Source: Halalkaliarchaeum sp. AArc-CO
Lineage (GTDB): Archaea > Halobacteriota > Halobacteria > Halobacteriales > Haloferacaceae
DNA length: 64,000 nt
Direction: 5' to 3'
Assembly (NCBI RefSeq): GCF_024972735.1
Contig: NZ_CP087723.1
Coordinates: forward strand, 248,001 to 312,000
A program made the translations under genes and the position numbers. This document shows, piece after piece, positions 43,186 through 52,249 of the stretch. The stretch's first letter is position 1. Each line of letters opens with the position of its first letter. The notes beneath the pieces are model-generated. The model was not told where the DNA came from. It made no database searches and saw only the letters and a program-made list of their open reading frames with translations.

Positions 43186-43305
43186 GTGGATCTGGGTTGG
43201 AACTCGAGACGGTAAAAATTGGTTGACTCGAGGCAATCGAGGGAATCGACAGCGGTTCCGCCCCGTCCGTTGCTCGCGACAAACCCACACCGGACTGTCG
43301 TTCCC

Positions 43306-45816
43306 CTACTCTTCGGTCTGCCTGCTCTCGAGCAGTGCATACAGCGCGCCAGCAGAAAGCAGTGTCGCAGGAATACCGAATCCGGGGACGGTTTCGTCAG
43401 TTTTTGTCGGCGATTGCTCTGTGGGTTCCGTCGTTTCTGTGGGAGTAGGGTCGTCTTCGGTCGGCGTGGCGGTGGGTGTTTGTGTCTCTGCGACTCCCTC
43501 GATCAGGTCTTCGGCCTCGGTTGCCAATGACTGTGCGACCTCGAGGGCGTTGTACTGCAACACTCGTTCGGCTTTGTCGAGTTTAGCGCCCGCGCGAACA
43601 GCGAGTGGCTCCCTGTCGGTGTCCGTCGCCTCGATCACGGTTCGGATCTCCTCGATCTGTTCGCGTACCGTTTCTTCCGTCGTTTCTGGGGCTCTCTCGT
43701 CGAGGACGAGGATGCCCCACACTCGTACAGTTGGCACCTGGAGCGATATCCCATCGTCTGTCGGCTCTACGGAGAGATCGGTGACTCCCTGTGGTGTGTA
43801 GTACGTTGCCTCATCAGCAGCCTCGGACAGCGACACTGCGAGATCGTCGAGTCGATCCATCTCGTCGGTTTCGCGGTCGTATTCGTAGTTTACGAGGTGG
43901 ACGATCGTGGTCCCTGCGTTCGTGAAGACGGACACGCCAACGTCGGTGTCTGTCTCGATCGAGACGTGGGGTGAATCATCGTCGAGTGCCTCTCGGAACC
44001 GGTCTGCGCTTTCCCCTGTTCCGTGCTGATTCGGCTCAGTATCCAGCACGGTCGCTCGGTCGGCTTCGTCCAGGTGGGCACGGAGGTCATCTCGTGGTTG
44101 GTACTCTTCGGATCGCACCGGTGGTGTTCCTGTAGCGATCACCGTTGTCCCTGTATCGAGTGCAGCAGTAATCGCCTCGGCGTGGCGATCGGAGACGCAT
44201 TCGACGCCGGGAAGCACGAGGCGGTCGTACGACTGCAGTCGTTCTGTCTGTTCGGGGGCTTCCCAGAGGTCGGGCATATCGAGAATGACGACGTCGTAGG
44301 GAACGTGTTGGTTCCGGAGGACGTTTGCGACCTCACCCAGCGCAACCGAATGATCCGCCCGATACGTCCCCCATTCAGGTGTCCGTTGCCACAACAGCGT
44401 CGGTAGTGACACGGCAACGACCGTCTCGGAAGCCTCCGTGACGTCGGTGAGGTATGGCTCCATCGCACGAAGGAAATCGGCACACTGGTGGAGTTCATCC
44501 GGAATCGTTCCATCCGGCTGCATCCAACTGTTGACTGCTCGGTCCGCATGTGAATTCGGGAGACCAGTCATCGGAAGACTCCGCCTGACCCCGTTGCTGT
44601 ACGCCTGTGCGACGTGAAACTGCATGAGCGTCGGGTACTGGTCACTGGTCTCCAGTCCGGCAGTCGTTGTGAAGTTCTCGAACATGCGTCCCCAGGCTCG
44701 GACTGGTTTTTCGAATCGGCCGGCTGCCCGACCGATTTTCATCGACATATCGTGGGGTCGTTCCGGCGGAACCGTGGGCTGTGTTTCGATCGAGATGACG
44801 TCTACGTGATCGGATTTGTAGATACTTGCCGGCGAGAGGTGATTCCATTGGAGACCGAAGCCGAGCCCGAAGACGGTGTATCCGGTGTCACGGGCCGGTG
44901 CGCGAGCCACCGCTTCGGAGAAGACGTCGTCGACAAATTCGCGTTGTTCGGTGTGTTGAAACATCGCGTATTCTCGAAAGACGGGATCCGCTGCGGGTGT
45001 CGAGGTCTCTGCTGGTGTGACCCCGGCAGCTTCGAAGTAGTCGAGGACGTCGAAGGACGCCGGATCGTCGATTCCGAGTTCCGAACGCCTGTGGTCCGGG
45101 AGTGCTGTGAGGTGCTCGCGGAACGCAGTCTGGGCCCACTCCGAGAAATCAAGTCCAGAATGAATCCCCTGGACCGGCGAATCGATCCAGAACTCGGTGG
45201 CCCCCCACGCGAGGATTTCTGCGCCCGTTCGTATCAGTCGATCGCGCGTTCCTTCCGCGAACGAGGAGGGATTGATCGTCTCCTGGTCCTCGCCGTGGGG
45301 CATCCGCGGCTGCCGGTCGAACGACTCGGCTGCCAGTGCATTCGGGTGCCATACTGTGGATCCATCGGGATACTCCCACCGTTCGTCTTCGGGAAGCTGC
45401 TCGTACCAATCCGGGTGGAGCTGGTCCGTATTGATGTAGGCATGCACTCCGAGTGAGAACGGCAGATCGTACGTGTTCGCGACAGATCGGATCTCCCGGT
45501 GCCGAGCTGCATACCCCCGACTGTCGGGGCCGTGCCATCCGGTCAAGTCGAGTTCGTTCAGGAGATCCGGGTCGAGTTGCAGGACCGCTCTGATCGCCCG
45601 TGTCCGATCCGCGTCGTCCCACCCTCGCTGCTCCTGGAGCGCATGGTTGAGGTGATTGACCATGAGGAAGGCGTCGGCAGTTCCCGTGTGTTGATCGGCT
45701 TCGTGGGTCCGGACGGTTTCGGCGGCACGTCCCCCTTCCACAGTCGCCATCGCACCGACCCCGAGTATCCCACAGAGCTGAAGATAATTCCGCCGCAGAA
45801 TCGCGTCTCGAGACAT
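43306..45816 (-). CDS. Tat-exported glycoside-hydrolase-like protein with PGF-CTERM-like tail
   Basis: 836 residues. MSRDAILRRNYLQLCGILGVGAMATV is a twin-arginine signal. The body looks like a TIM-barrel glycosidase-like domain (WHGPDSRGYAARHREIRS, GATEFWIDSPVQGIHSG) followed by a Rossmann-like domain (PYDVVILDMPDLWEAPEQTERLQSYDRLVLPG) and a beta-domain, as in family 42-like or related proteins. I cannot assign the family. Near the end comes a Thr/Pro-rich stalk (TPTATPTEDDPTPTETTEPT), then VPGFGIPATLLSAGALYALLESRQ, a PGF-CTERM-like signal. It should be a client of the archaeosortase encoded at 5247. Confidence 0.7.
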   Translation of the reverse strand: MSRDAILRRNYLQLCGILGVGAMATVEGGRAAETVRTHEADQHTGTADAFLMVNHLNHALQEQRGWDDADRTRAIRAVLQLDPDLLNELDLTGWHGPDSRGYAARHREIRSVANTYDLPFSLGVHAYINTDQLHPDWYEQLPEDERWEYPDGSTVWHPNALAAESFDRQPRMPHGEDQETINPSSFAEGTRDRLIRTGAEILAWGATEFWIDSPVQGIHSGLDFSEWAQTAFREHLTALPDHRRSELGIDDPASFDVLDYFEAAGVTPAETSTPAADPVFREYAMFQHTEQREFVDDVFSEAVARAPARDTGYTVFGLGFGLQWNHLSPASIYKSDHVDVISIETQPTVPPERPHDMSMKIGRAAGRFEKPVRAWGRMFENFTTTAGLETSDQYPTLMQFHVAQAYSNGVRRSLPMTGLPNSHADRAVNSWMQPDGTIPDELHQCADFLRAMEPYLTDVTEASETVVAVSLPTLLWQRTPEWGTYRADHSVALGEVANVLRNQHVPYDVVILDMPDLWEAPEQTERLQSYDRLVLPGVECVSDRHAEAITAALDTGTTVIATGTPPVRSEEYQPRDDLRAHLDEADRATVLDTEPNQHGTGESADRFREALDDDSPHVSIETDTDVGVSVFTNAGTTIVHLVNYEYDRETDEMDRLDDLAVSLSEAADEATYYTPQGVTDLSVEPTDDGISLQVPTVRVWGILVLDERAPETTEETVREQIEEIRTVIEATDTDREPLAVRAGAKLDKAERVLQYNALEVAQSLATEAEDLIEGVAETQTPTATPTEDDPTPTETTEPTEQSPTKTDETVPGFGIPATLLSAGALYALLESRQTEE

Positions 45817-45898
45817 ACTCACCCGTCGATGCAGTGTGTCATAATCCCTTCGCCGAGGGTGGGGGAGCGTGGCCGCGAGTGGATCCAGTCCATTCCCG

Positions 45899-46015
45899 TC
45901 ACCTGTCGACGGATTCGAGTTCGATCGACCGGTCCTCGGTTGCTTCCACGTCCAGGATCCGTTCGAGTTGCTCCTCGAACTCCGCCTCGGAGAGTTCATG
46001 GACTGTGGCGTCCAA
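45899..46015 (-). pseudogene. possible small gene or C-terminal gene fragment
   Basis: The frame ends DATVHELSEAEFEEQLERILDV, then EATEDRSIELESVDR and TGA. It is preceded by an in-frame TAG and offers only a TTG as start. The acidic, helical composition is typical of true haloarchaeal protein, whereas other frames here are arginine-rich. Most likely the remaining end of a gene lost between the reductase and the secreted protein. Confidence 0.35.
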
Positions 46016-46047
46016 ACACTATTGCGTCGTTCCCTCCAACTCGGAGT

Positions 46048-47079
46048 ATGACGAACACCAACCGTGAGTGGATTCTCGCCGAGCGGCCGGTCGGCGAGCC
46101 CGATACAGCGTGTTTTGACTTACAGGAAACCGACGTCCCCACACACGGGTCAGGGGAGCTGCTCGTCCGGACGCGATATCTCTCGGTCGATCCATACATG
46201 CGCGGCCGAATGCGCGATTCGAAATCCTATGCGGAGCCGTGGGACGTGGGTGACACACTTCGAGGCGGGATCGTCGGCGAGGTTGTCGAAAGTGAGAGTG
46301 ACGACTACCACGAGGGCGATCTCGTTACCGGGGAAGGGACGTGGGGGGATTACTCCGTTCTCGATACGGAGGAGGTTGTCCCTGTCGATCCCTCGGTCGC
46401 GAACCCCGAAGCGTATCTCGGTGTCCTCGGAATGCCGGGTCGGACGGCGTACTTCGGCTTGCTGGAGGTTGGCGAACCCAAGCCCGGCGACACGGTCGTC
46501 GTTTCCGGTGCGGCCGGTGCGGTCGGATCAGTCGTCGGCCAGATCGCGAAACGAAACGGGTGTCAGGTGGTCGGATTCGCAGGTAGCGACGAGAAGACCG
46601 CATGGCTCACTGACGATCTCGGGTTCGATACTGCAATAAACTACAAAACGACTGACGACTACCGTGCTGCGCTCGAGGACGCCGCACCCGGCGGCGTGGA
46701 CGTGTATTTCGACAACGTTGGCGGCCCGATCACGGATGCGGTTTTCACGAAACTCAATCTTGACGCTCGCGTCGCCGTCTGCGGGCAGATCGCCCATTAT
46801 AATGACGAGGAGCCGCCGACAGGCCCGCGGAAGCTTCCACAACTGATCGCCCCGCGAGCGAAGGTTCAAGGGCTGCTCGTGAGTGATTTTTCCACCCGAT
46901 TCGGCGAGGCGAACGAACGGATCTCCCGGTGGGTGGCAAGCGGGGAACTTGACCACCGGGAGACGATTGTCGAAGGGTTAGAGAACGCCCCCGATGCTTT
47001 TCTTGGCCTATTCGAGGGCGACAACATCGGCAAACAAGTGGTGCGAGTCTCGTCTCCAGCGGGAGACGATACTCGCTAG
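46048..47079 (+). CDS. zinc-free medium-chain NADP-dependent reductase
   Basis: 343 residues. Typical features of 2-alkenal/leukotriene B4/curcumin-type reductases: YLSVDPYMRGRM, GDTLRGGIVGEVVES, GMPGRTAYFGLLEV, the dinucleotide loop VVSGAAGAVGSVVGQIAK, GGVDVYFDNVGGPITDAVF, and AKVQGLLVSDF. No zinc ligands. It reduces activated double bonds, probably in detoxification. The ATG at 46048 starts MTNTNREWILAERP, and homologues start this way. Confidence 0.9.
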   Translation: MTNTNREWILAERPVGEPDTACFDLQETDVPTHGSGELLVRTRYLSVDPYMRGRMRDSKSYAEPWDVGDTLRGGIVGEVVESESDDYHEGDLVTGEGTWGDYSVLDTEEVVPVDPSVANPEAYLGVLGMPGRTAYFGLLEVGEPKPGDTVVVSGAAGAVGSVVGQIAKRNGCQVVGFAGSDEKTAWLTDDLGFDTAINYKTTDDYRAALEDAAPGGVDVYFDNVGGPITDAVFTKLNLDARVAVCGQIAHYNDEEPPTGPRKLPQLIAPRAKVQGLLVSDFSTRFGEANERISRWVASGELDHRETIVEGLENAPDAFLGLFEGDNIGKQVVRVSSPAGDDTR

Positions 47080-47187
47080 GAGTACACCTCTTCTGCAGGT
47101 CCTTTTAAAACCGGCGCGATCGCCGAGAACTCTCATCGAATTCGCTTAACAAGTACCATTACAAGTGTCGCGGGCGCTCCGTCAATT

Positions 47188-48654
47188 ATGAGTGATGAGC
47201 GCCGGATGACCACGGACCGATTCTACGGCGGTGTCACGAACCGCCTCGAGAACCTCCGATCGATGCTCGAGTACGTCCGGGCTCACCATCCGCCCCGTGA
47301 ACAACTCGTTGACTGGGTACTCTCAAATACTCCTGCAGGAAGTTCTGACGCCGTGGATCATCACCTGGCGTTTCTGGCGTCGATCGAACTGATCGACCTC
47401 ACCGACGAGGAGTGTACACTAGCCGAGTACGGGGAGCAGTGGCTGCAAACCCAGGAACCAGAAACGCTATACAAGGCACTTTCAGAGGGTGTGAAAGGCT
47501 TCGAGACGATCCTTACTGCTCTCAGTCAGGGGTCGATGACTGACGAGGAAATCATGACGTTGCTGACCAGCAGGTTCGACGAAGCCGAAATGTCTACGCC
47601 CGGGCCAGCAATCCGACATCGGGAATGGTTGCAAGTACTGGGCTATCTCACACGTGAAGACGGGGTCAACCGAATCACGGACACAGGTGAAGCGCTCGTG
47701 GCTGAAAAGGGGGACCACAGCGATCTTTCTCCGTCAATATGGAGGCCACCGGACGGTGTGTCGGTGGGGGATACACTCACCCAGGACGAAATCGAAGCAG
47801 CGTTCGAGACGGGGTTTGGCTACCGTATTACTGGCATCAATCCACGTCGAGACGATCACGACCACCGCTACGTCCTCGTGTTTGCCAGGGAGGATGGTCC
47901 CTACGATGATTCCGTGCGAGACGGCCAATTCGAGTATATTGGTGAAGGGCTTTCCGGCGATCAAAGCGAAACGTCACCCGGAAATTCGACGCTCATCGAC
48001 GCGACTTCATCGGATATTCCGGTGCATTTCTTCTACCAGAATACGACTGAAGACGGCTGGGAGTACCAGGGACTCGTTGACGTCTGCGACTACGAGTTCA
48101 AGAAACGAGATGGTCGTGAGGTTCTCGTTTTTACGATGGAACACCAGGATGTAGACGGAACTGATCGAACAGACTCCGGAGATCACACTCTCACGGCTGA
48201 ACAGGAAATCCTCGAAGAGGTACTGGCGGAGGAATCGGACACACATTCGAGCGAGGAGTCGTATACTGAGGTGCGACAGCGGGTTCGAGATACTGTATTC
48301 CGGCGGCTCGTGCGACAAATCTACGACGGAACCTGTGCGATTTGCGGGCAGTGTCGGGAGACGCCCGACGGTATCCCTGAGGTGGAAGCCGCCCACATAC
48401 GTCCGAAGGAAGACGGTGGTCCGGATACGGTCGCGAATGGACTTGCCCTTTGTAAGCTCCATCACTGGGCGTTCGACAACGGGTGGCTCGCTGTTAGCGA
48501 TGACTACGAAATCCTCGTGAAGGAGGCCCCGGACCGCGACGGCTATTACGAATTCAAGCAACTCGAAGGAAAGCGTCTGGAGTTGCCTGACAACGACGCG
48601 GTACTGCCTGCATCGAAGTATTTGAAGAAGCACCGGGAGCTACAGGACTTCTGA
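47188..48654 (+). CDS. HNH endonuclease with modified-DNA-reader-like domain
   Basis: 488 residues, three parts. The first 190 residues are helical (DRFYGGVTNRLENLRSMLEYVRAH, EYGEQWLQTQEPETLYKALSEGVKGFETIL) with winged-helix look. About 195-325 resembles the SRA-like/PUA-like reader of McrA-type enzymes (FEYIGEGLSGDQSETSPGN, WEYQGLVDVCDYEFKKRDG). The C-terminus is a complete HNH nuclease: CAICG at 383-387, AAHIRPKEDGG and LCKLHHWAFDNGWL. It is probably a type IV-like restriction enzyme against modified DNA, and has no methylase neighbour. GC content is below that of neighbouring genes. Confidence 0.8.
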   Translation: MSDERRMTTDRFYGGVTNRLENLRSMLEYVRAHHPPREQLVDWVLSNTPAGSSDAVDHHLAFLASIELIDLTDEECTLAEYGEQWLQTQEPETLYKALSEGVKGFETILTALSQGSMTDEEIMTLLTSRFDEAEMSTPGPAIRHREWLQVLGYLTREDGVNRITDTGEALVAEKGDHSDLSPSIWRPPDGVSVGDTLTQDEIEAAFETGFGYRITGINPRRDDHDHRYVLVFAREDGPYDDSVRDGQFEYIGEGLSGDQSETSPGNSTLIDATSSDIPVHFFYQNTTEDGWEYQGLVDVCDYEFKKRDGREVLVFTMEHQDVDGTDRTDSGDHTLTAEQEILEEVLAEESDTHSSEESYTEVRQRVRDTVFRRLVRQIYDGTCAICGQCRETPDGIPEVEAAHIRPKEDGGPDTVANGLALCKLHHWAFDNGWLAVSDDYEILVKEAPDRDGYYEFKQLEGKRLELPDNDAVLPASKYLKKHRELQDF

Positions 48655-48754
48655 TAGGGGTTATCGCAGGGTAATAGATCCGAAAGAGGGAACCGAAAGC
48701 CGTGGCCGTGTCGAAGATTACTGGGATATACTGTCGGCTCTCACAGCACAGTCG

Positions 48755-49114
48755 TCAATATTCGTTTATCGAGCCTGTGTGGACACTCCCGTATCCATTA
48801 CAATTACCACAAGTTCCGTGGTATCGGCCGTCACCTCCACAGGTTCGACACTTGATTCTAGGACTCTTGGCGACCACAACCCCTATTCCATCACAAATGC
48901 CGCAGGTTCCGTGGTATCGACCGTCACCTCCACAGGTTCGACATTTGTACAGGTCTCCTCCCGACACCTTCTTCCAAACTACTCCATCACCATCACAAAT
49001 GCCGCAGGTTCCGTGGTATCGGCCGTCACCTCCACAGGTTGCACAGTCTAACAGAACTTTCTTAGATTCGCGCTTTATCACCAACTTGGTGTATTTCTCG
49101 AGCTTCGTCGCCAT
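48755..49114 (-). CDS. DnaJ-type zinc-repeat protein (three CxxCxGxG units)
   Basis: 119 residues. Three near-identical blocks CATCGGDGRYHGTCGICDG, CRTCGGDGRYHGTCGICDG and CRTCGGDGRYHGTCGNCNG, each with two CxxCxGxG-like motifs, are separated by short linkers. The arrangement equals the zinc-binding part of DnaJ without J or substrate domains. DNA of the blocks is repeated almost exactly (about 45 bases at 48808, 48900 and 48999). It is convergent with the HNH gene (stops 100 bases apart). Zinc-binding is certain in outline, function unknown. Confidence 0.78.
   Translation of the reverse strand: MATKLEKYTKLVIKRESKKVLLDCATCGGDGRYHGTCGICDGDGVVWKKVSGGDLYKCRTCGGDGRYHGTCGICDGIGVVVAKSPRIKCRTCGGDGRYHGTCGNCNGYGSVHTGSINEY
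48808..49044 (-). repeat. three 45-base direct repeats in the zinc-repeat gene
   Basis: Copies at about 48808-48850, 48900-48945 and 48999-49044, spaced by nearly 100 bases, encoding the repeated zinc units. Third-position identity shows recent duplication or gene conversion. Confidence 0.85.
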
Positions 49115-49620
49115 ATGGTCGTGACTGGGATAGAGGGATAATACTTTTTCTGCATGAATATCTGGGAGTAACCACCATATTTGAGCAGGTCAACCATTCT
49201 GAGGGCCGCTTTGTCTGACGTACGGTAATGTCTCCTCCTCGAGGTGTGCGACATCGTCCGGCGAACGTCGTAATTTACTACAGAGCCCGACGCTGATTAC
49301 TCCACCATTTCACTAAGACCGTGCTGACTACACGCTCTGTATCTTGCACTGTCTTCTCTAACTAGTTCTATTTCAACAGTTTGCCACTCCGATGCAACGC
49401 GATAAATCTGCTGTGAACGTTTCTATGACACGGTATGTGGTAATCGCTGCAATCTCGGCGGAGATCTTTTCTCGATAACCGATCCGGACTCTTCTCCCTG
49501 GCGATGGTCACACCGAGTGGATCCCCGGCCCGCCACACCCTGAAAAGAAACGAAGGTGAGCCAACGAGTCCGCACGGTCACAGCTGAGGGAATCGACTGG
49601 ATGGATTTCCAGGGAGGAAT
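49115..49620. other. 500-base gap with decayed sequence, no intact gene
   Basis: AT content is intermediate. On the minus strand a run of about 37 codons (ISVGLCSKLRRSPDDVAHLEEE then TLPYVRQSGPQNG, about 49194-49310) without a start looks like a gene remnant. The right end leads into the hairpin of a possible insertion-sequence end at 49616-49649. No RNA gene seen. Confidence 0.35.
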
Positions 49621-49649
49621 CTCCGTCCGTTAGGGCGGAGAGAGGGTCA
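49616..49649 (+). mobile_element. possible right end of an IS1341/IS605-type element
   Basis: GGAAT followed by a hairpin CTCCGTCC-GTTA-GGGCGGAG (49621-49640, one G-T pair) and GAGGGTCAA is the pattern found after tnpB genes in haloarchaeal IS200/IS605 elements. No tnpB is left upstream. The same hairpin could instead end the nhaC transcript, whose stop is at 49647. Confidence 0.4.
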
Positions 49650-51320
49650 ATCGTCGGACCCGCCCGCCTCGGCGTCCGGCTTCACCGGATCGTCGATCTC
49701 CTCTTGCGCGGCGTCGACCGCAACCGGCTCGACACCCTTGCGTCGGGCGTCCAGCTCCGAGAGCCCGTACACGAGCCCGACGAGCAGGAGCACGCCGACG
49801 GGCACCAGAACGAACGGCGTGATTCCGGTGAAGCCCCACACGAGCAACAGCACGATCGCGACGAGTCCCACCGTGACGGCGTAATACAGTTGCGTCCGGA
49901 CGTGATCGATCAGGTCGGCGCCGGTAAAGGTCGAGGAGAGCACCGACGTATCGGAGATCGGGGATGTGTGGTCGCCGAAGATCGACCCGGAGAAGATCGT
50001 CCCGACGACCGCCGCGACCATGGTGTGATCGCCCGTGAGGCTCCAGGCGACCGGGATCGCGATCGGCGTCAGGATGGCCATCGTACCCCACGAAGTGCCC
50101 GTGGAGAAGGCGATAAACGCAGCCAGGATCAACACCAGCGCCGGCAGGATCCCCGCCACCAGATACGCGTCGGCAAACCCGGCGACGTATTCGCCGGTCT
50201 CCAGCGCCGAGACCACCTCGCCGATCCCCCACGCGAGCACCAGGATCGACACTGCGGTGAGCATGATCCCGAACCCTTCGATCGTCGTGTCGGTCGCCTC
50301 GCCGAAGCCGAAGATGTCGTAAACCTTCCCCAGCACGAACCCGGAGACGATCATCGCGAACGAGCCGTAGATCAACGCCGCCGCGTAGTCGGCGTCGATG
50401 ATCATGTCCATCAGGGCCGCCCCCGGTTCGTAGCCCGTCCACAGGGCGGTGCCGAGCGTGACGACGACGAGAACGATCACGGGGACGAAGAAGTTCACCA
50501 GCCTGGGGTTGTCCCCGTGTGGCTCCCCGAGTTCGGCCTCGACGTCCTGCATCGGTCTTGCATCCTCGCGGTACACCTTCCCCGTCGACCACGACCGATG
50601 TTCCGCATCGAGCATCTCCCCGTAGTCCCGACGGGTACCGACGACGATTGCGACCATCGCGATCGCGAGCAGCGCGTACATGTTGTACGGGATCGAGTTG
50701 AGGAACACCTCGAAGGCGGAGGGATGCTCCGCCAGCCCGAGGTCGTCGTACGCGTCGGCGATCAATCCGAGCTGAAACGCCACCCACGAGGAGATCGCCA
50801 GCGTCGCCACCGGCGCCGCCGTCGAGTCGACGATGTACGACAGTTTCTCCCGGGAGATCCGGAGCTGGTCGGAGACGTCCTTCATCGAGCTGCCGACGAT
50901 CGCGGTGTTGGCGTAGTCGTCGAAGAACATCACGAGCCCCAGCACCCACGCCGCAATCCCGGCCTTTCGCTGGGTGTCGAGCCGCTCGAGCGCCCAGTCC
51001 CGGACGGCATACGAGCCACCGAGGTTCCAGATCATCGCCACGCCGGAGCCCAGAAACAGCGTGAACACCAGAATCATCGCGTGGAAGTCGTCGGCGATGG
51101 CGGCGACGATCCAGTCGAACGTCGGGAAAAAGCCGAAGCCGGCGCTCGCGACGTCGCTCACCCATCCGGCCGGATCCGCCAGTGGATTCGGCCCGCCGGC
51201 GTACAGGATCCCCCCGGACCAGATTCCGAGGAACAGCGACAGCACCGCCTTCCGCGTGATGATCGCCAGTACGATCGCGAGCAGCGGCGGGATCAGTGAC
51301 AGTATGCCAAATTCTGACAT
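49647..51320 (-). CDS. nhaC: NhaC-family Na+/H+ antiporter
   Basis: 557 residues, 11-12 membrane segments. Family landmarks: GVAMIWNLGGSYAVRDW, the acidic motif FFDDYANTAIVGSSMKDVSD in the membrane, DSTAAPVATLAISSWVAFQ, FSTGTSWGTMAILTPIAIP, and GSIFGDHTSPISDTSVLSS. The acidic C-terminal tail (about 30 residues) is cytoplasmic. It exports sodium and fits salt adaptation. ATG at 51320 begins MSEFGILSLIPPLL. Confidence 0.93.
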   Translation of the reverse strand: MSEFGILSLIPPLLAIVLAIITRKAVLSLFLGIWSGGILYAGGPNPLADPAGWVSDVASAGFGFFPTFDWIVAAIADDFHAMILVFTLFLGSGVAMIWNLGGSYAVRDWALERLDTQRKAGIAAWVLGLVMFFDDYANTAIVGSSMKDVSDQLRISREKLSYIVDSTAAPVATLAISSWVAFQLGLIADAYDDLGLAEHPSAFEVFLNSIPYNMYALLAIAMVAIVVGTRRDYGEMLDAEHRSWSTGKVYREDARPMQDVEAELGEPHGDNPRLVNFFVPVIVLVVVTLGTALWTGYEPGAALMDMIIDADYAAALIYGSFAMIVSGFVLGKVYDIFGFGEATDTTIEGFGIMLTAVSILVLAWGIGEVVSALETGEYVAGFADAYLVAGILPALVLILAAFIAFSTGTSWGTMAILTPIAIPVAWSLTGDHTMVAAVVGTIFSGSIFGDHTSPISDTSVLSSTFTGADLIDHVRTQLYYAVTVGLVAIVLLLVWGFTGITPFVLVPVGVLLLVGLVYGLSELDARRKGVEPVAVDAAQEEIDDPVKPDAEAGGSDD

Positions 51321-51469: not shown

Positions 51470-52249
51470 ATGGGGGATCCGCACGGGCCGGACGCACGGA
51501 TCGAGTCGTCACAGAACGGATCGGCGCAAAACGGATCGGCGCAAAACGGATCGGCGCAAAACGGAACGGCGCAAAACGGATCGGCGCAAAACGGAACGGC
51601 GCAAAACGGAACGGCGCAAAACGGATCTGCGCAAAACGGATCGGCGCAAAACGGATCGAAGACCGACCGTCCTCGGGCCGACGGGCGGGTCATCGCGATC
51701 TGTGGGGTTCCCGGTGTCGGAAAAACCACCACGGCCGAGTGGATCACCGACAACGTCGGCGGGCAACTCCTCCGGACGGACGTGATTCGAAAGGAACTGT
51801 TCCCTGATCCGTCGTACACGGCCGAGGAGCGCAGACGGACGTACGCCGAACTGTTCGACAGGGCGTTCGAGGTGGTCTCGACGGGTGAGGTGGCGGTGCT
51901 GGACGCCACGTTCGCGAGGCGACGCCACCGCGACTGGCTGCGGGAGCGCGCGGCCCAGGCGGACGTCGATATCGAGTTCGTCGAAGTGGAGTGTGCCGAA
52001 CCGGTCGTTCGCGACCGCATCGCGGCCCGCGAGGGGGCAAGCGACGCCGACTTCGAGGTGTACCTCTACTACCGGTATCGCTTCGAACCCGTCCGCGGCG
52101 AACATCTCACCGTCGATAACTCCGACGGGCTCGCGGAGACGTACGCCCAACTCGAGCAGTACTTCGGCGGCGTCGAGGCTGTAGGCGTCGAACGATCGGC
52201 GGAGACCGAGGGTCCGACGGAGATCGAACAGTCGAGCGAGGCGGAGTGA
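51470..52249 (+). CDS. P-loop kinase-like ATPase with AQNG-repeat N-terminus
   Basis: 259 residues. Residues 14-63 are ten units of xQNG(S/T), mostly AQNGS. The folded part starts at about 70: Walker A CGVPGVGKTT, TDVIRKELF, AVLDATFARRRHRDWLRERA, then RIAAREGASDADFEVY. This is the small-molecule kinase/zeta-toxin-like group (COG0645 style); the substrate is unknown. The tail ends in an acidic repeat. The repeats are a flexible linker and may vary among strains. ATG chosen just before the repeats; an internal start would lack them. Confidence 0.8.
   Translation: MGDPHGPDARIESSQNGSAQNGSAQNGSAQNGTAQNGSAQNGTAQNGTAQNGSAQNGSAQNGSKTDRPRADGRVIAICGVPGVGKTTTAEWITDNVGGQLLRTDVIRKELFPDPSYTAEERRRTYAELFDRAFEVVSTGEVAVLDATFARRRHRDWLRERAAQADVDIEFVEVECAEPVVRDRIAAREGASDADFEVYLYYRYRFEPVRGEHLTVDNSDGLAETYAQLEQYFGGVEAVGVERSAETEGPTEIEQSSEAE
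51509..51658 (+). repeat. 15-base minisatellite, ten copies (AQNGS units)
   Basis: Unit GCGCAAAACGGATCG or GCGCAAAACGGAACG, in frame in the kinase gene. Because 15 is a multiple of three, copy number changes keep the frame. Both alternatives (Ser or Thr) are intermixed. Confidence 0.92.

Follow-up and report, generated by a model that had tools for sequence, protein, structure and literature searches.

The stretch of DNA analysed here, called the window below, comprises 64,000 nucleotides of Halalkaliarchaeum sp. AArc-CO (bases 248001-312000 of contig 2; host genome 3.18 Mb). This work concerns two adjacent genes of the window, one for a putative modification-dependent endonuclease and the other for a small protein made of zinc hairpins (Table 1). 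The two open reading frames (ORFs) converge, leaving 100 nt from stop to stop, and lie where an initial annotation had placed them. That annotation had described a restriction-like enzyme with a helical N-terminus, an SRA/McrA-like reader and an HNH nuclease, facing a protein of three DnaJ-type zinc units. Taken as a whole, its observation was partly confirmed and its interpretation partly supported.

Table 1. Features of the endonuclease and zinc-hairpin locus (window positions).
Feature	Position	Strand	Remarks
ND-SRA-HNH endonuclease gene	47188..48654	+	488 aa; putative type IV, modification-dependent restriction enzyme
ND, internally duplicated winged helix	47188..47727	+	residues 1-180; putative DNA/modification reader
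SRA (PUA superfamily) domain	47734..48162	+	residues 183-325; Y239, D241, Y250 kept
HNH (beta-beta-alpha-metal) nuclease	48253..48651	+	residues 356-488
Zinc-hairpin protein gene	48755..49114	-	119 aa; N-terminal beta segment and three CxxCxGxG-tip-CxxCxGxG units; apparently separate cargo
Zinc unit 1	48983..49045	-	
Zinc unit 2	48881..48943	-	
Zinc unit 3	48788..48850	-	
Segment absent in G015 (same genus)	43218..49665 (edges approximate)	.	between M48 peptidase and Na+/H+ antiporter genes
897-aa ORF, same segment	43306..45999	-	no Pfam match at 1e-5
ADH-type oxidoreductase gene, same segment	46072..47079	+	PF16884, PF00107

Domain anatomy and relatives of the endonuclease

The C-terminal part of the endonuclease matches the HNH family PF13391 (E=1.8e-12). 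By correspondence with TagI, its zinc ligands are C383, C386, C422 and H425 and its active site comprises H403, N417, H426 and D430; the zinc-binding and catalytic residues are retained in the aligned sets of the nuclease and its relatives. With the whole nuclease as query, TagI (6ghs) was matched at 9.5e-10 over residues 257-443, that is SRA plus HNH, and ScoMcrA (5zmm) at 3.4e-4 over residues 211-276. TagI, an SRA-HNH enzyme, was also the best match among solved structures (Z 16.1, 241 residues within 184-488, root-mean-square deviation (rmsd) 11.4), and in the fold comparison SRA structures could be superposed on residues 183-324 with Z up to 14.6 (rmsd 3.1, 134 residues). The HNH nuclease and the SRA-like middle part of the initial annotation were thus both recovered, the latter through the matches of the whole protein and the fold matches. 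In TagI the pocket is formed by Tyr55, Asp58 and Tyr67 (PMC6212794), which correspond to Y239, D241 and Y250 of the nuclease. These three residues are kept in 21/21 rows of a full-length set made of the window protein and 20 proteins of family f4 of the same order, and in 17/18, 17/17 and 18/19 letters, respectively, of a wider aligned set.

Unlike TagI, the window enzyme carries ahead of the SRA a further domain that we call ND. The helical N-terminus seen earlier turned out to be a duplicated winged helix, since its two halves (about residues 17-92 and 99-179) align with each other at 97.3% probability (hhalign profile alignment, E 1.8e-11, 26 non-redundant ND sequences). The second half superposes on the RosR regulator of H. 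salinarum (Z 12.5, rmsd 1.6, 76 residues). In the second predicted recognition helix of ND, H144, R145, W147 and Q149 are kept in all 21 rows; R145 is not retained in the other ND subfamily, which is described below.

The nuclease was matched in 78/148 genomes of its own family at E<=0.001. Two draws of 392 genomes were made from the order, one for each gene; they are of equal size, presumably comprise the same genomes and yield lower bounds, since at most 4 nuclease and 10 zinc candidates were scored per genome. The nuclease query matched at least 104 of the 392 genomes at E<=1e-30. A single match over the whole nuclease was found in at least 21 of them, namely this genome and 20 others, all of family f4, whose proteins (477-496 aa, no stops) are 41-44% identical to it (39-43% by BLAST). 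Outside these 21, partial matches at 32-35% covered residues 1-433 (G632), 1-432 (G661, contig 4) and, with a stop, 56-485 (G537). Family f4 includes genomes whose match start coordinates equal those of matches on plasmids of Natribaculum, which we take to be a genus of the Natrialbaceae. The ND-SRA-HNH architecture also occurs in Haloquadratum, in LUM.47 at 62% identity and in a J07HQX50 copy broken by stops. A scan of viral contigs for the nuclease confirmed 0 of 23 candidates.

The same domains are found in other combinations. ND is joined to HNH without SRA in L013, L031 and L067, the HNH of L013 being closely related to that of the nuclease, while SRA-HNH proteins without ND are found in L010, L011, L016 and others. 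The order SRA-DpnI_C-HNH was recognised by Pfam in L014 (PF17726, 5.7e-12) and by alignment in L015 and L027. L050 consists of SRA, an EVE-like domain (E 0.007, below the EVE cut-off) and HNH, and L047 of ND, an insert, an SRA-like part and HNH. On haloarchaeal plasmids, ND is also followed by a McrB-like AAA domain (PF07728) with an adjoining gene (L048, L049); the partner genes are without Pfam match and their designation as McrC-like is our own reading. L048 is 38% identical to nuclease residues 1-295 (ND plus the SRA-like part) and L049 47% identical to residues 1-171; both have an AAA NTPase plus a separate partner gene in place of the HNH of the window nuclease. We also noted a second ND subfamily with the motif SIVPMFGG (L083-L088, L090-L098), in frames of ~330-380 aa that mostly have an HNH match and no SRA match. 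L067 belongs to this subfamily and gives a weak match to PADLOC PDC-S02.

Among phage and virus records, the best match of the nuclease is HHPV4I (HhiV4I) of Haloarcula hispanica pleomorphic virus 4, an SRA-winged helix (wH)-HNH enzyme whose SRA and HNH are 73% and 53% identical, respectively, to those of the nuclease. HHPV4I carries between SRA and HNH a DpnI-type wH (PF17726, 2.2e-16), a segment missing from the window nuclease in the alignment, and the latter has ND added N-terminally. PF17726 had no match at E<=1 in the window nuclease, in LUM.47 or in the Haloterrigena turkmenica protein presented below. According to PMC10101028, HHPV4I is a Gm6ATC-dependent endonuclease of an archaeal virus that requires its wH and can dispense with its SRA, and it does not efficiently cut DNA with 5-methylcytosine (5mC), 5-hydroxymethylcytosine (5hmC) or glucosylated 5hmC (g5hmC).

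A second point of reference is provided by genome G655, which is Haloterrigena turkmenica DSM 5511: 8001/8001 bases (100%) of a stretch of its contig 2 agree with NC_013744.1, at unchanged positions. Among the 4 scored of its 8 candidates, the sole match at 1e-30 is an ND-SRA-HNH protein of 496 aa on a 3.889-Mb contig, which aligns with the nuclease over the whole length at 40% identity. The restriction enzyme HtuIII is listed with 496 aa, NC_013743 and WP_012944509.1 from this very strain, and is described as restricting mildly in Dam+ E. coli and as nicking weakly close to Gm6ATC with Mn2+ or Co2+ (PMC11037411). The G655 protein is very probably HtuIII. That paper files HtuIII as PUA-wH-HNH, a label that places the wH in the middle. 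The G655 protein has its winged helices N-terminally; if the two are the same protein, HtuIII would have N-terminal winged helices and no recognisable DpnI_C.

What the endonuclease may read

Altogether, we consider it likely that the nuclease is a stand-alone type IV ND-SRA-HNH enzyme whose ND probably reads 6-methyladenine (6mA), and that the zinc protein is unrelated cargo. As a putative type IV restriction enzyme it is a relative of HHPV4I and probably shares its class with HtuIII. ND would recognise the modified site, probably 6mA in a GATC-like context, and the SRA/PUA would be a second, accessory reader. The HNH domains, paired in a dimer as in TagI, would nick or cut some way from the mark, with Mn2+ or Co2+ as the probable metal. 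L013, which carries ND plus HNH without SRA, suggests that ND could be sufficient as sole reader. We also put forward, more tentatively, the joint proposal that ND is a second kind of 6mA sensor, whose duplicated winged helix is not detectably DpnI-like, and that it is a module passed among HNH, SRA-HNH and McrBC-like restriction enzymes of haloarchaea.

Such an enzyme would not require a partner methylase, and the remark that none lies in the neighbourhood could be extended to the whole host genome for PF00145, PF01555 and PF02086, which had no match there at E<=0.001; self-damage to the host may thereby be avoided. In keeping with this, neither a Dam-type nor a C5 methylase was seen in the host. 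Two PF02384 methylases are present on the same contig, more than 1 Mb from the nuclease, at ~1.36 and ~1.42 Mb (L070, L069). Each of these genes is followed by one that by its look resembles HsdS, like in type I restriction-modification loci. The early suggestion that modified foreign DNA is the target gains support and becomes sharper through the ND-SRA-HNH class and the kinship with HHPV4I and HtuIII, and the enzyme would be predicted to cut modified DNA only.

Several points weigh against this explanation. The 6mA specificity of the window nuclease is probable by analogy and cannot be read from the ND sequence, because ND is not detectably closer to the DpnI wH than to a control: as a DpnI-type wH it scored 5.5% in hhalign, compared with 10.5% for an unrelated viral winged-helix regulator, and ND was rejected as a member of that type. 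With the first ND half, that control reaches 59%. The two PF02384 adenine methylases imply that 6mA in other contexts is to be expected in the host and must be tolerated, which removes some 6mA contexts from the possible targets. The SRA assignment is weak by sequence alone, as PF02182 does not match the nuclease even at E<=1 and the SRA stretch queried by itself found ScoMcrA at just E 0.09-0.18, ranked under an implausible top match. At the same time its pocket is intact, which keeps cytosine marks among the candidate targets. In the AlphaFold model (mean predicted local distance difference test (pLDDT) 80.5, predicted template-modelling score (pTM) 0.43), the relative placement of the domains is not reliable at this pTM. 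Concerning HtuIII, its activity is weak, it comes from another family than the host and has diverged from the window nuclease, and its equation with the G655 protein is based on genome, replicon and length and not on the accession sequence. Other proteins of 480-496 aa in the table that lists HtuIII, likened to the nuclease by length only, vary in activity: NspC1119I is strong in vivo with none in vitro, and NtiG33I has none (PMC11037411).

We also examined a DpnI-like residue pattern in ND. Of two hhalign outputs, one placed R143, R145 and Q149 in register with K197, R199 and Q203 of HHPV4I (Q203 by hand count), and the other gave a different register. We regard the pattern as no more than a lead, R143 being Gln in 20/21 rows and the pattern not being kept in the other ND subfamily.

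A different explanation, which we regard as rather unlikely, makes the SRA the true sensor of an enzyme that, like TagI or ScoMcrA, depends on a cytosine modification, be it 5mC, 5hmC or a cytosine mark of haloviruses, with ND adding only sequence preference or dimerisation. TagI cuts 5mC and 5hmC DNA (PMC6212794), its pocket residues fit the conserved Y239, D241 and Y250, SRA-HNH relatives without ND exist and the host genome has no PF00145 match. On the other hand, the 73%-identical SRA of HHPV4I is dispensable, HHPV4I does not efficiently cut the three cytosine-modified DNAs (PMC10101028), and ND-HNH enzymes exist that have no SRA at all. Dependence on phosphorothioate is very improbable. 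It would be suggested by NF045808 (phosphorothioate-dependent McrA), the best NCBIfam match of the nuclease (E=1.6e-26, 93.1 bits), but this match covers the HNH only (residues 356-484) and stays under the curated cut-off of 180 bits; the sequence match to ScoMcrA lies on the SRA-like part, and 5zmn, a ScoMcrA fragment with the sulfur-binding and SRA domains, aligns weakly with residues 101-365 (Z 11.5, rmsd 7.0). One could finally imagine that the HNH enzyme is methylation-blocked (type II-like) or of homing type, recognises its sequence without modification and no longer has its partner. Winged helices are able to recognise plain sequence, and homing enzymes are among those with the HNH fold. 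The fusion to an SRA with an intact pocket and the Dam-dependence reported for HtuIII (PMC11037411) make this improbable.

The last alternative concerns both genes of the locus. The nuclease and the zinc protein could form one system, with the zinc protein as inhibitor, activator or antitoxin-like modulator, an idea already present in the initial annotation beside that of a separate cargo; of all the explanations weighed here we hold it to be the least probable. The genes are adjacent and share a segment of 6.4 kb, but their convergent orientation does not make an operon. Furthermore, the pair was not found again. The regions of ~16 kb (16.0-16.4 kb) that surround the G087, G253 and G754 zinc genes, with just 2 kb to one side in G754, contain 623 ORFs. 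None of these was matched by the nuclease (phmmer, E<=1) or by the ND profile, while the zinc query, as positive control, recovered all three zinc genes. Conversely, 24 loci of 20 other ND-SRA-HNH genes and six Haloquadratum loci of two genes (2769 ORFs) held no zinc relative at E<=0.01, in agreement with the count of CxxCxGxG motifs around the ND-SRA-HNH genes; the flanks were 1.5 kb for the 20 genes, with 4-5.5 kb for four of them in addition, and the LUM.47 contig ends ~0.5 kb past the gene. In the draws from the order, this genome alone appeared in both the zinc list (3/392) and the nuclease list (104/392). G087 holds an ND-HNH gene (2.3e-14) ~68 kb from its zinc gene.

In G754, a McrC-like C-terminal fragment ends ~1.6 kb from the zinc gene at a contig edge (L065:2-412, L065:1987-2283), with 28-30% identity to the McrC-like partners (E about 1e-7). 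This proximity would fit one system, and we treat it as chance. The co-occurrence check proposed at the outset thus found the zinc gene unlinked to such nucleases in this sample. Linkage is not supported in the examined genomes, the role as modulator loses its ground, and the zinc gene is apparently an unrelated, separate cargo, in line with the other half of that proposal.

The zinc-hairpin gene

The six CxxCxGxG motifs of the zinc protein form three pairs, which bears out the three zinc units described initially. The protein passed no Pfam or NCBIfam cut-off. With respect to DnaJ, no J domain match was listed and TIGR02349 gave 16.7 bits for a cut-off of 377.2; NF058604 for anti-TRAP (RtpA) gave 11.9 bits for a cut-off of 65. 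The CxxCxGxG pair of each unit is also found in anti-TRAP and in the zinc domains of BSD2 and DnaJ, which differ from the window protein with its three units per chain and no J domain match. In the fold model (pLDDT 72.9, pTM 0.54), ~29 residues of a zinc unit superpose on anti-TRAP at ~1 A. The top fold matches, BSD2 and anti-TRAP, are insignificant (Foldseek E 0.13-0.6; BSD2 rmsd 12.4), and a covalent trimer of anti-TRAP type was dropped for this reason. Each hairpin would resemble one anti-TRAP unit or half a DnaJ/BSD2 zinc unit, and the protein may be an adaptor that binds nucleic acid or protein.

Relatives with three units were found in G087 (same family, 153 aa), in G754 (other family of the same order, with an in-frame stop) and, elsewhere in the phylum, in G253, whose units have a quite different tip. 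The gene is rare, with at least three of the 392 order genomes positive at 1e-8. G298 (L046) has two zinc units only, G248 and G314 (L063, L064) lack the N-terminal segment and have a different layout, and the matches of G020 and G036 were set aside as they sit in frames of 402 and 386 aa that are presumably DnaJ. Searches by tblastn with two queries (1e-5; 0.01) gave no match in phages or plasmids. A scan of viral contigs confirmed 0/5 candidates for the single protein and 1/209 for the alignment, the latter (L059) having scattered CxxCxGxG motifs without the layout. Nothing matching this family was met among the best-ranked literature matches, from which we make no claim of absence in print.

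The units of the window gene agree with one another in 17-19/21 residues and 52-55/63 nt (83-87%). The almost identical unit DNA reported at first was therefore overstated for whole units and holds for their central part, which is nearly identical. Compared with the same-position units of G754, they agree in 11-16/21 residues and 39-41/63 nt, and the G754 units agree among themselves in 11-14/21 residues. In G087 and G253, the tips are alike inside one gene and unlike between the genes, with many synonymous differences. Recent expansion, as first suggested, was not confirmed: since the layout with three units recurs in three distant relatives among the archaea, the units appear to be old rather than newly expanded. 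From these four genes, the three units appear to be ancestral and to have been homogenised more recently, by gene conversion or by selection for equal tips.

Genomic setting and implications

The gap between the M48 peptidase and Na+/H+ antiporter genes is 34 nt in G015, of the same genus, and ~6.4 kb here, where the segment holds the 897-aa ORF, the oxidoreductase, the nuclease and the zinc gene; three more distant genomes have only the antiporter in common with the locus. With this single same-genus relative compared, the segment is either an insertion here or a loss in G015, and the low GC of its genes favours insertion. Indeed, the nuclease and zinc genes are less GC-rich than their surroundings, as noted early on (0.560 and 0.506, against 0.625 and 0.659 in the flanking 10 kb). 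Neither segment edge has a tRNA within 3 kb and no integrase is among the four named genes, smaller ORFs not having been scanned. The C-terminal tail of the 897-aa ORF resembles what we take to be the PGF-CTERM pattern. Further along the window, positions 51515-51658 contain an array of a 15-nt repeat (9.6 copies, 95% matches) that is translated as an AQNGS-type stretch, N-terminal in a P-loop kinase-like ORF; the array of G015 counts just ~4 copies.

With the zinc protein, a rare repeat family of archaea comes into view, its units alike within a gene and different between genes. As for the nuclease, it is ordinary but informative, as it belongs to a class with a probably characterised member. 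If ND is indeed the 6mA sensor, the Dam-dependence of HtuIII would be owed to ND rather than to a central DpnI-type domain. The order of domains published for one enzyme class would be corrected. Nature has provided domain swaps on a related HNH chassis, namely the DpnI-type wH in HHPV4I, ND plus SRA in the window enzyme, ND only in L013 and SRA only in L010, which let one ask which domain reads the DNA mark. Our finding points to a way in which haloarchaea could recognise incoming DNA with Dam-like or other modifications.

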